Shown here: one piece after another, positions 28,464 to 31,237 of the stretch
How the letters are laid out: each line of letters starts with the position of its first letter
How positions within the stretch are numbered: position 1 is the stretch's first letter
DNA from: Gimesia fumaroli
GTDB taxonomy: Bacteria > Planctomycetota > Planctomycetia > Planctomycetales > Planctomycetaceae
Assembly: GCF_007754425.1 (NCBI RefSeq)
Contig: NZ_CP037452.1
Span: 7,419,164 to 7,483,163, forward strand
Length of the DNA stretch: 64,000 nucleotides
Reading direction: 5' to 3'
Program-made: the position numbers and the translations under genes
The notes under the pieces: model-generated
The model's input: the letters and a program-made list of their open reading frames with translations, nothing else
Database searches by the model: none
What the model was told of the DNA's origin: nothing

Positions 28464-28913
28464 GGCAAGTACCTTTATCGGCAGGAAAAAAGAGCTTTTA
28501 GTGATGCTAAATCAGGGAATCAGTGCTTGAGGACTTTATATTGTAAACAAAGTAAATAATGTTCACAAACGGGAATCTGAAGATTTCCGGATTTCCTGGT
28601 CTGAATTTCGTTCCCTGCTATTCCACACCGGCCATAGTACGACTTCTCTGGCAATTTCCTCATGTCGTTTTCATACAAGATTTCTCATGTCGCTTTCCAG
28701 TTTGGATTTCGCGTGCAGAAAAAATAAAAAAAACACATCTTTTTCTGGCGACAAGCGTCGGAAGACGGCGCCAATATTCGGTGATTTGCGATAGTTGGCG
28801 TCATTCGTCTCTTCACTGTTTTGAGACACCTTCTGAAAAAAAGAGACTGCTTTTTTGACGCTATAATTCCTCACGTAACGCACACCATTCACCACTCAAA
28901 CAAGGAATCAAAC
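28464..28913. other. Divergent promoter region of heme-protein and LexA-CsrA genes
   Basis: About 450 bases with no credible gene. It contains a direct repeat CTCATGTCG(T/C)TTTC at 28659-28672 and 28684-28697 (offset 25), and an inverted repeat GTCTC-N11-GAGAC at 28807-28827 with a further GAGAC at 28843. A TATAAT at 28862-28867 could be the -10 box for the gene at 28914, but no -35 lies at the proper distance. A LexA-like regulator next to repeats suggests self-regulation; this is inference. Confidence 0.4.
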
Positions 28914-29297
28914 ATGAAAACGACAGAAGCAACCATGCGACAGAAACTGACAGAAAAACAACACGCCATTTATTCATTCATCAAACAGGAAATTACGCAA
29001 CAGCGTCTTTCCCCCACCGTACGAGAAATCGGGGACCAATTTGGGATTCGCTCTTCTAATGGCGTGATGTGTCACTTGCGTGCACTGGAGCGTAAAGGAT
29101 GGATCAAACGCGACCACTACCTCTCGCGTGGCATAACCTTGATCGCAGAACCAGTCACTCAATTTTTGACTCTCACGCCTGGAGAAGCCGGCTGCTTAGG
29201 TGAGATTTATGTGGGTTGTGTCGGCGTGGAAAATCGTAGCGTCACGCTGGAATTGATCGCTCCCGACACAATGGGAGAACTTCGCAAAGATCTATAA
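28914..29297 (+). CDS. LexA-type DNA-binding domain fused to a CsrA-like domain
   Basis: 127 residues from the ATG at 28914 with AAGGAATCAAAC upstream. Residues ~10-77 match the LexA N-terminal winged helix: LTEKQHAIYSFIKQEI, RLSPTVREIGDQFGIRSSNG, HLRALERKGWIKRD and SRGITLI. The LexA protease domain (Ser-Lys dyad) is absent. Instead residues ~84-127 align with CsrA: FLTLTPGE, GEIYVGCVGVENRSVTLELI and IAPDTMGELRKDL correspond to the LILTRxxGE, VTVxVLGVxGNxVRxGI and APxxxxVxREEI positions, with the RNA-contacting arginine kept in LRKDL. It may bind both DNA and RNA, or be a LexA-like repressor with a CsrA-type dimerisation fold. Two unknown genes follow. Confidence 0.8.
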   Translation: MKTTEATMRQKLTEKQHAIYSFIKQEITQQRLSPTVREIGDQFGIRSSNGVMCHLRALERKGWIKRDHYLSRGITLIAEPVTQFLTLTPGEAGCLGEIYVGCVGVENRSVTLELIAPDTMGELRKDL

Positions 29298-29376: not shown

Positions 29377-30084
29377 ATGGGAATATCAGACATGGATCAA
29401 GTACCAGAACATAATCAGGACTCCGGTTGCTTACCATTTTCAAATACACCGGTTACCGATTCTAAGGATTTATCAACTGCAAACGAACGACTCTTAGAAG
29501 TTCCCGCAGTATTGAAACGCAGTTATGCAAATCTGCTGACCATCGAAGATGAATATGAAGGTCTAACAGCAGCAGAAGCGGAAACTGATGTCAAGCAATG
29601 TAACGAACTGTTGCTTGATCAGGAGCAGCAGATTTCAACACTGGCTCGCAAATTAAACCAGGAAAAATCAAAGCTCGATCGCTTCAAAGGAGATCTGGAA
29701 GAAGCAGAAGTTTGCCTTGCGATGGCCCAATCTTTTGAAGCTGCTGTTACAGGCTGGCGAGAGACCATACATAATATGGAATCTCTCCACAATGAATTCA
29801 TCAAAAGCCAACAATCGTTCTCACTGGCAGAACAAGCCTGGGAAGACTTGAAACACGCAGAGAAACAGGCTGTGGCTAAACTGAAAAGCTCAGCCACAAC
29901 AGACGCGATTTCTGTTCCTTATGGGTCAACCTCTGCTATCAAACAGGAATCGTTACTGCCCGACGAAGTTTCCATCGAGATTCTGGGCGACTATCTCCCG
30001 ATCTCTATTTTGACGGTGGGTGCACAACTCTCTCTCAAGCAATGTCAACAGGGAACCGCAACTTACGCCGTTCACTGTCTCTGA
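29377..30084 (+). CDS. Coiled-coil protein downstream of the LexA-CsrA gene, unknown
   Basis: 235 residues from ATG 29377, or 230 from ATG 29392. The central part (~60-165) is a long amphipathic coiled coil rich in Glu, Lys, Gln and Ala (LDQEQQISTLARKLNQEK, DRFKGDLEEAEVCLAMAQ). The C-terminal ~45 residues are more globular (EVSIEILGDYLPISILTVGAQL). No signal peptide and no membrane helix, so probably cytosolic. I do not recognise a family. It begins 79 bases after the LexA-CsrA gene and is followed 64 bases later by another unknown gene on the same strand; the three look like one cassette. Confidence 0.6.
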   Translation: MGISDMDQVPEHNQDSGCLPFSNTPVTDSKDLSTANERLLEVPAVLKRSYANLLTIEDEYEGLTAAEAETDVKQCNELLLDQEQQISTLARKLNQEKSKLDRFKGDLEEAEVCLAMAQSFEAAVTGWRETIHNMESLHNEFIKSQQSFSLAEQAWEDLKHAEKQAVAKLKSSATTDAISVPYGSTSAIKQESLLPDEVSIEILGDYLPISILTVGAQLSLKQCQQGTATYAVHCL

Positions 30085-30148
30085 TCGTTCGATCGTGCAA
30101 GTCACGATTTTTATCCAAAATTATTTAAAACACGGGGAGTTTACGTCT

Positions 30149-31237
30149 ATGCAAAACCAGTCAACTCAACCAGATTTTGTTTCCAATGCCTGTCGGACAA
30201 TCAGCGGCCAACTCGCCGAATGGGGCATTGCCTTCAGCCAGGACCGTGTCGCGCAACTCAAGCCCGACCAGCGCAATGAACTCCAAAACTGGATCAACGC
30301 AAGTGTCGATGCAGATGAAGAGTATCGAGAAGCGATTGCATCACTACCCGAGTTCATGGAGAGTGAGCTACTGGAAATGTGTGGTGCATTATCAAACGAA
30401 GGTCAAGAGACCATTATCGAACAGGCCATCAATGCATATGAGGCAGACGCCGCGATCACAGAGAACCCATATCTGTTTGACACCAATGCCTGGCACCTCT
30501 GGCGCGCCGCTTTCTGTCGCTGGCATCATGGAGAACCACTTGATTTCCCTGGAGAACAAACGAAAGATGCTATTGAAATTGAGAACCAGAACTTGGTCTC
30601 TGAAATTCAACAAACGTTAATCCAGATCGCACCTCAATTAAGTCAAGCAGAGCGTACTCTGAAACAAATCTGCCATCAACTAAAACAACAGGTACAATTG
30701 ACACACCAACTATGCGAATCATTTGAATCAAGTGCAGAAACAGTTCCTGCGGTTGAAGAGAACGTTTCGCTAAATCATGAAAAAGAAGACGCGCAGAAGT
30801 CATCACGAGCTGCTCCTACTACAGGATACTCAAGCATAGTTCGCATTCCTGTTACCGGGCCAGAGACAAATCGGGTTGAAGTTTACTTGCTTCAGGACAA
30901 CCAGGGACAATGGCGAGCCGGGCACCTCTGGTCGGTCGAAGCAGACCTCCGGACCGGTCAACTATCACGAGGTAGTAGACAGCCTGATCAACAGCAAATC
31001 GCCTACCCGACAGAAACCGAAGCGTTAATCAATGAAGTCATCTCTCTCAGCCAGTCTCTGATTGGCGTGCCTGAGATCGAAAGGCAGATTATTGACTACT
31101 TAAACCTTTTGGAAGAATTTCCGGGGCAAATAGCGGTCTGCAGGGCTTGTCAACGTCACTATATTGATGACGGCCTGTCTGAAACAGACTGTTGTCCGAC
31201 GTGTTTCGAAAAATTGGACTCAACAGCAAAGCTATGA
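30149..31237 (+). CDS. Unknown protein with C-terminal zinc-ribbon-like motif
   Basis: About 362 residues from the ATG at 30149, which has CGGGGAG upstream; earlier in-frame starts overlap the previous gene. Four parts are visible: an N-terminal helical region; NPYLFDTNAWHLWRAAF (~111-127), which recalls the ribosome-modulation-factor-type motif NPY...aW..G; a coiled segment (~145-210); a beta-rich part (VEVYLLQDNQGQWRAGHLW ... PTETEALINEVISL); and a tail with CRACQRHY and CCPTCFEKL, four or five cysteines placed as a zinc ribbon. The beta part resembles short domains often found in plasmid and mobile-element proteins. Function unknown. Confidence 0.65.
   Translation: MQNQSTQPDFVSNACRTISGQLAEWGIAFSQDRVAQLKPDQRNELQNWINASVDADEEYREAIASLPEFMESELLEMCGALSNEGQETIIEQAINAYEADAAITENPYLFDTNAWHLWRAAFCRWHHGEPLDFPGEQTKDAIEIENQNLVSEIQQTLIQIAPQLSQAERTLKQICHQLKQQVQLTHQLCESFESSAETVPAVEENVSLNHEKEDAQKSSRAAPTTGYSSIVRIPVTGPETNRVEVYLLQDNQGQWRAGHLWSVEADLRTGQLSRGSRQPDQQQIAYPTETEALINEVISLSQSLIGVPEIERQIIDYLNLLEEFPGQIAVCRACQRHYIDDGLSETDCCPTCFEKLDSTAKL

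Follow-up and report, generated by a model that had tools for sequence, protein, structure and literature searches.

Organisation and conservation of the locus

The window, which is the whole stretch of 64,000 nucleotides analysed here, comes from Gimesia fumaroli, a marine planctomycete with a genome of 7.7 Mb in a single contig. The gene under study encodes a protein of 127 aa in which a LexA-type winged helix is joined to a C-terminal domain (CTD) with the predicted fold of CsrA. The following features were mapped at the locus:

28862..28884, plus strand: putative conserved promoter core TATAATTCCTCACGTAACGCACA, a -10-like box with a conserved block next to it (possible operator)
28914..29297, plus strand: LexA winged helix-CsrA-fold fusion gene (ATG at 28914, stop codon ending at 29297, 127 aa)
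28941..29132, plus strand: LexA-type DNA-binding winged helix, residues 10-73 (PF01726; model match to LexA chains)
29160..29294, plus strand: predicted CsrA-fold CTD, residues 83-127 (AF2, Foldseek, VIA, hhalign, register)
29377..30084, plus strand: downstream partner gene for a 235-aa coiled-coil protein with no assigned function (conserved adjacency)
30020..31237, plus strand: conserved gene that follows, for a product of up to 405 aa whose C-terminus is Cys-rich (the ORF overlaps the preceding gene and its start is uncertain)

A search of 59 relatives (17 Gimesia genomes and 42 genomes outside the genus) identified an ortholog in all 17 Gimesia genomes with 82-95% identity. Of the 42 others, 41 matched by the LexA head, with an overhang to residue 103 at most. 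Both halves of the protein look to be kept by purifying selection. The pN/pS (Nei-Gojobori, all pairs) is 0.065 for the DNA-binding head and 0.175 for the CTD, values that are upper-side estimates because pS is near saturation.

The coiled-coil gene adjoins the fusion gene in 16 of the 17 Gimesia genomes; in the remaining one the contig ends 28 bases past the match and the coiled-coil copy lies on another contig. This gene is present in 17 of the 59 genomes and in none outside the genus. A homolog of the coiled-coil protein (28% over 178 aa, E 1e-15) is encoded with a fusion paralog in a second cluster of the same genome. The 405-aa gene occupies the same place in all five Gimesia loci with enough flanking sequence (L047-L051), and no convincing family match was found for its product.

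Upstream of the fusion gene, a -10-like box is followed by a conserved CGTAACGCACA block, in which one of the 14 aligned upstream regions (from the 17 orthologs) carries A for the second G. The TATAATT and CGTAAC-CACA columns are invariant in all 14. To judge from this conservation the block may act as a promoter and operator. When as many as 3 mismatches are allowed, it occurs at a single place in its own genome and therefore defines no regulon. No operator common to the window gene and the two lexA genes was seen by eye (10 upstream sequences each). There is no csrA within 31 kb of the window gene, and defence models (PADLOC) gave nothing convincing.

A LexA-type head lacking the peptidase

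Residues 10-73 match the Pfam LexA_DNA_bind family with an E-value of 1.2e-19 (70.3 bits against a cut-off of 23.7), and residues 10-80 are matched by LexA chains of the PDB. The full-length model aligns with LexA chains 1jhh and 1jhf with Z of 13.2 and 13.1 and rmsd of 1.2 and 1.1 over 72 and 73 residues, respectively. No Pfam match to the S24 peptidase was found in the 127-aa protein, which bears out the initial annotation of a LexA DNA-binding domain without the self-cleaving protease. The NCBIfam lexA model is matched only at profile positions 2-78 of 203, scoring 66.3 bits where the cut-off is 110.95. Because the full-length lexA model fails and S24 is absent, the protein is not a LexA. 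It shares with LexA a winged-helix DNA-binding domain of one family, and its recognition-helix stretch SSNGVMCHLRALERKG resembles SPNGVMCHLKALEKKG in a LexA protein encoded by the same genome. It differs in having no peptidase domain, so that self-cleavage is not expected, and in carrying a C-terminal domain of another fold.

LexA-type DNA-binding heads are also found in the phage families PHROG 362 (annotated as a transcriptional repressor) and PHROG 3502. The short LexA-type phage proteins differ from the fusion in that, of the 77 viral loci in which a LexA-type ORF was present, the CTD profile matched only L134 and L135. Proteins of 81-82 aa that consist of a LexA head only are encoded several times per Gimesia genome and have similar, LRIRFCGxV-like tails (for example L063 2440-2688, L064 2498-2743, L056 2272-2517 and L058 2098-2343).

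Predicted structure of the C-terminal domain

The full-length AF2 model has a mean pLDDT of 89.7. The CTD is approximately 46 residues long, and residues 79-127 were used for a stand-alone model, to which AlphaFold2 assigned a pLDDT of 94.8. Strands b2 (92-95), b3 (98-106) and b4 (109-115) were read from the full-length model, and b1 (~84-88) and b5 (~121-125) were placed by register. In the stand-alone model b2, b3 and b4 form a meander, and the b1 and b5 stretches are extended, confident and unpaired. In the CsrA protomer b1 and b5 go to the partner chain, as described in part of the text of PMC3791407. The unpaired strands of the predicted CTD are consistent with such a strand-swapped protomer.

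With the stand-alone model as query, ranks 1-15 of the Foldseek search of the PDB were all CsrA or RsmA chains (E 0.04-1.4, TMq up to 0.80), and the unrelated proteins beyond rank 15 had E-values of at least 2.0. The full-length model retrieved CsrA chains at ranks 22, 28 and 50 among the best 50 rows; the first of these, 5z38_H, had a probability of 1.00 and rmsd of 1.2 over 45 columns. In VIA-align the CTD placed eight CsrA-family entries first (Z 2.4-6.3), followed by two unrelated rows at 2.0. The best was 1vpz_B, with Z 6.3 over 49 residues and rmsd 1.8. A Z of about 6 is middling for a large domain; here the alignment of the modelled CTD covers the whole domain and lies well above the non-CsrA value of 2.0. 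For the full-length model VIA-align listed no CsrA entry, since matches of the LexA domain take up all places.

A CsrA-like protomer is thus predicted for the CTD by AF2, Foldseek and VIA-align, in keeping with the fold that the initial annotation had anticipated. The absence of any CsrA profile match combined with a predicted fold lacking the CsrA dimer would have spoken against this assignment; what was found is a sub-threshold match and a CsrA-like protomer. As a model-based argument, structure prediction is stronger evidence for the CsrA fold than sequence, and AF2 may lean on a memory of CsrA. Tolerance of the CsrA fold to change is illustrated by RsmN, a structural variant of RsmA that is rearranged and still dimeric (PMC3791407, part of the text). 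RsmN differs from the fusion in that it binds RNA, and no DNA-binding domain is described for it in that part of the text (PMC3791407).

Sequence relationship to CsrA

The CsrA likeness noted in the initial annotation is real, and it is weak by sequence. At the level of single-sequence profiles there is a match, and it is sub-threshold. Residues 83-127 score 12.5-12.9 bits with the Pfam CsrA model (E 0.11; cut-off 27). Over the whole genome PF02599 gives the window CTD 11.9 bits (E 1.95) and finds 13 other places above the cut-off. In all, 18 CTDs were aligned (alignment A4), which comprise 13 of the 17 orthologs and five other CTDs. Eight of these match CsrA in Pfam, with 12.2-19.2 bits among the scores listed; the best is L022 (19.2 bits, E 0.0012, against the cut-off of 27). 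The other ten CTDs have no CsrA match in Pfam. CsrA is the only Pfam family matched by more than one of the 18 CTDs, two other families being matched by one CTD each.

An hhalign comparison of 11 CTDs with 48 unique CsrA domains gave a score of 22.6 (E 1.2e-4, 39 columns), and the register was held through IG...V..V...V.L...AP...R. The highest score of a column-permutation null (n=200) was 17.0. Seven orthologous rows alone scored 14.7 against CsrA, which is inside the null tail and not significant; L053b with L052 scored 10.5, and L054 alone 8.7. Since the subsets score low, the CsrA signal depends on the diverged paralogs being combined. A profile search of the PDB with the CTD alignment retrieved two chains of CsrA (1y00 and 2bti) with an E-value of 0.7, and unrelated chains at an equal level. 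The likeness of the CTD to CsrA is beyond chance, and sequence alone would not have settled its identity as CsrA.

The CTD shares with CsrA/RsmA/RsmE (PF02599) the predicted protomer fold, the length, the strand order and a GE..IG..V..V...V.L...AP pattern. The AP....R motif of the initial annotation was recovered in part: A and P are each present in 16 of the 18 CTDs, and the R is not universal. The CTD differs from CsrA in its sub-threshold score, its acidic character, the loss of Arg6, the variability of Arg44 and the replacement of Gly33 by Glu. It is also joined to a DNA-binding domain and is devoid of the C-terminal helix of CsrA, for which there is no room because the window protein ends directly after b5.

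RNA-contact residues and charge

Positions of CsrA were mapped onto the CTDs by the hhalign register. Arg6, which we take to contact RNA in CsrA, is Arg in 48 of 48 CsrA domains and in none of the 18 CTDs, where it is Leu (17) or Thr (1). Arg44 is described as an RNA-contact residue of CsrA in part of the text of PMC3791407. It is conserved in 48 of 48 CsrA domains and in 11 of the 18 CTDs, that of the window protein included. Among the 17 orthologs this position is Arg in 12 (again with the window protein), Gln in four (L023, L024, L025 and L027) and His in one (L021). Gly33 is found in 47 of the 48 CsrA domains and is Glu in all 18 CTDs.

The net charge of the CTD ranges from -2 to -6 in the 17 orthologs and that of the 48 CsrA cores from -1 to +7, and each ortholog CTD has 2-4 Lys+Arg, against a mean of 8.1 in the CsrA cores. 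In the five other CTDs the net charge is -7 to 0. The viral CTD of L134 has a net charge of 0 and an Arg at the CsrA-7 position. Because Arg6 is lost, Arg44 is variable and the CTD is acidic, canonical RNA binding by the window protein appears unlikely from its residues.

Distribution outside Gimesia and other proteins resembling the CTD

Outside the genus no match to the CTD at E <= 1e-5 was found in 294 genomes of the phylum when the best 20-23 candidates per genome were scored. At E <= 0.001, 29 of 347 genomes of the class matched (14 Gimesia genomes and 15 from outside the genus), and every match with E < 1e-15 belongs to Gimesia; since the class search also scored only the best 20-23 candidates per genome, weak relatives may be missed in both. 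The 15 non-genus matches of the class (E 1e-5 to 1e-3) are nine short proteins of 56-119 aa and six proteins of approximately 400 aa, with no LexA fusion among them. Phage records, queried with the L052 protein only, gave seven matches, all on the LexA-type head. The 15 matches listed of 134 in plasmid records, queried with the window protein, are mostly annotated as LexA and some as 'DNA-binding' or hypothetical.

The short set consists of stand-alone ORFs of 56-94 aa (L086, L091, L092, L094, L095, L096, L098, L099 and L103) and L090 with 119 aa. These planctomycete proteins carry a CsrA-like PGES.RVG..IVTLV.VE and a different tail that is often acidic and has no RNA-contact arginines; L095 scores 17.8 bits with Pfam CsrA. 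They are possibly degenerate relatives of CsrA, to judge from this pattern. The approximately 400-aa proteins (L087, L088, L089, L093, L097 and L100) have a short b-domain-like end that resembles the CTD, LRLAPGETFTIG. L087, the sole one of these that was scanned, has a putative Ig domain.

Against the CTD profile hhalign scored the short proteins at 48.2 and the domain of the approximately 400-aa proteins at 43.9, compared with 22.6 for CsrA. The first two sets were picked by the CTD profile itself, and similarity to a CsrA gene was the criterion for the CsrA set. The higher scores of the non-CsrA sets are in part a selection effect, yet they show that the b-hairpin pattern is generic. The short proteins score 33.9 against CsrA (E 3.5e-7).

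Fusions on phage-like and mobile elements

Related fusions are found on four phage-like or mobile elements (L054, L052, L053 and L134). L054 is a second copy in the genome of the window (51% identity) and also occurs on IMG/VR contig L135. Its genes are ordered as fusion, csrA (38 bp on, approximately 80 bp to the likely ATG), an HTH gene and the coiled-coil homolog. L053 has two fusions, a terminase and parB, and its csrA is 1.6 kb from the nearer fusion and 3.2 kb from L053b. L052, which is also on IMG/VR contig L326, has a phage integrase and a csrA 679 bp from the fusion. In the IMG/VR viral contig L134 csrA and the fusion overlap, sharing 4 bp. All four elements thus encode a separate CsrA above the Pfam cut-off at most 1.6 kb from a fusion, and these CsrAs retain R6 and R44. 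A tree of 29 winged helices is little resolved, with unsettled bootstrap, long branches and a badly trimmed L033 row. L052 and L053b stand apart as a starred pair in it, which leaves room for an old fusion or for two separate origins.

The survey of similar fusions for which the initial annotation called returned all 17 Gimesia genomes and relatives on four phage-like or mobile elements. The architecture of a LexA winged helix with a CsrA-like domain that it proposed is backed by sequence, structure prediction and this conservation. No description of a LexA-CsrA fusion was found among the matches listed from titles and abstract starts of the open literature, outside which most subscription papers lie. 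The architecture is real, conserved and, as far as searched, undescribed, and combines two known domains anew.

Phages and plasmids of Pseudomonas and others are known to carry csrA, and the words 'fusion' and 'fused' do not occur in the text of PMC7366521, where this is described. A general pairing of lexA and csrA genes was considered and rejected, since 80 viral csrA loci have no accepted LexA-type gene within 2.5 kb. The LexA-type matches of L257 and L258 near viral csrA (E 2.1e-5) were judged spurious because the two sequences are identical and run for the most part opposite an open frame of 434 codons. Conversely, csrA is within approximately 4 kb in 5 of the 77 viral LexA-type loci. Unfused csrA genes that overlap or abut a separate LexA-head gene were seen in viral L138 (3790-3996 and 3977-4300) and L145 (3327-3938 and 3674-4600). 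CsrA matches are numerous in the family: each of the 61 genomes sampled, the window's own and 60 relatives, has 5 to 16 (E <= 1e-6), and that of the window has 13.

Proposed role of the CsrA-fold domain

CsrA is known as a stand-alone RNA-binding dimer. We propose that in the fusion its fold probably serves as a dimerisation domain, which replaces the LexA peptidase domain in a small DNA-binding regulator, probably a repressor. The LexA-type winged helix at the N-terminus would read a LexA-like half-site and the CsrA-fold domain would stand in for the peptidase/dimerisation domain of LexA. Two chains would exchange b1 and b5 as in CsrA to give an intertwined, permanent dimer whose pair of winged helices would face a palindromic operator. 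Because the S24 peptidase is absent, RecA-driven self-cleavage could not switch the protein off, which would make it a non-cleavable repressor. Binding of RNA in the canonical manner would be mostly lost. The family is tied to planctomycete phages and other mobile elements, and a chromosomal copy is fixed in Gimesia beside the coiled-coil gene. The head-CTD and coiled-coil module occurs both in a prophage-like element and in the chromosome, which suggests domestication of the chromosomal pair from a mobile element, presumably of phage origin.

The initial annotation had offered this dimerisation reading next to another, in which one protein would control both transcription and translation by binding DNA with its winged helix and, still, RNA (GGA motifs) with its CsrA domain. 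The former fits better. Dual regulation would draw on the predicted CsrA fold, on the Arg that 11 of 18 CTDs and 12 of 17 orthologs have at the position of Arg44 and on the less acidic viral CTD of L134 with its Arg at CsrA-7. We consider it decidedly unlikely in the face of the loss of Arg6 in 18 of 18 CTDs, the Q or H at Arg44 in five orthologs, the 2-4 K+R per ortholog CTD against 8.1 in CsrA and the missing room for the C-terminal helix. That the CTD is a generic small b-domain, as in the approximately 400-aa planctomycete proteins, and merely CsrA-like would account for the hhalign scores of 43.9 and 48.2 with the non-CsrA sets against 22.6 with CsrA. Both sets were preselected by the CTD profile, however; the short proteins themselves match CsrA and Foldseek ranks 1-15 are exclusively CsrA-family chains, which makes this explanation very unlikely.

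A further explanation is that the CTD mixes with true CsrA of the host or phage, and that the fusion tethers CsrA to DNA, antagonises it or binds DNA in dependence on the amount of RNA-free CsrA. A strand-swapped fold could in principle mix, an intact csrA lies at most 1.6 kb away on four of four phage-like elements with a fusion, the CsrAs of the elements retain R6 and R44, and CsrA matches number 13 and 16 in the two Gimesia genomes that were scanned. Against this stand the absence of csrA within 31 kb of the window gene and of an accepted LexA-type gene within 2.5 kb in the 80 viral csrA loci, and such a switch is in our view unlikely. We hold it to be quite unlikely that the CTD pairs both with true CsrA and with itself, linking the DNA-binding state of a repressor of phage descent to the amount of CsrA not bound to RNA. 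If mixed CsrA dimers do form, translation control would feed directly into transcription via swapped strands.

If the proposed dimerisation role, or that of a CsrA sensor, is true, the CsrA fold would have been reused as a transcription-factor dimerisation module or as a sensor, with decayed RNA-contact residues. The fusion would offer a compact, testable case of phage and bacterial repressors that are built without the SOS cleavage domain, and would link the csrA genes of mobile elements to transcriptional control.
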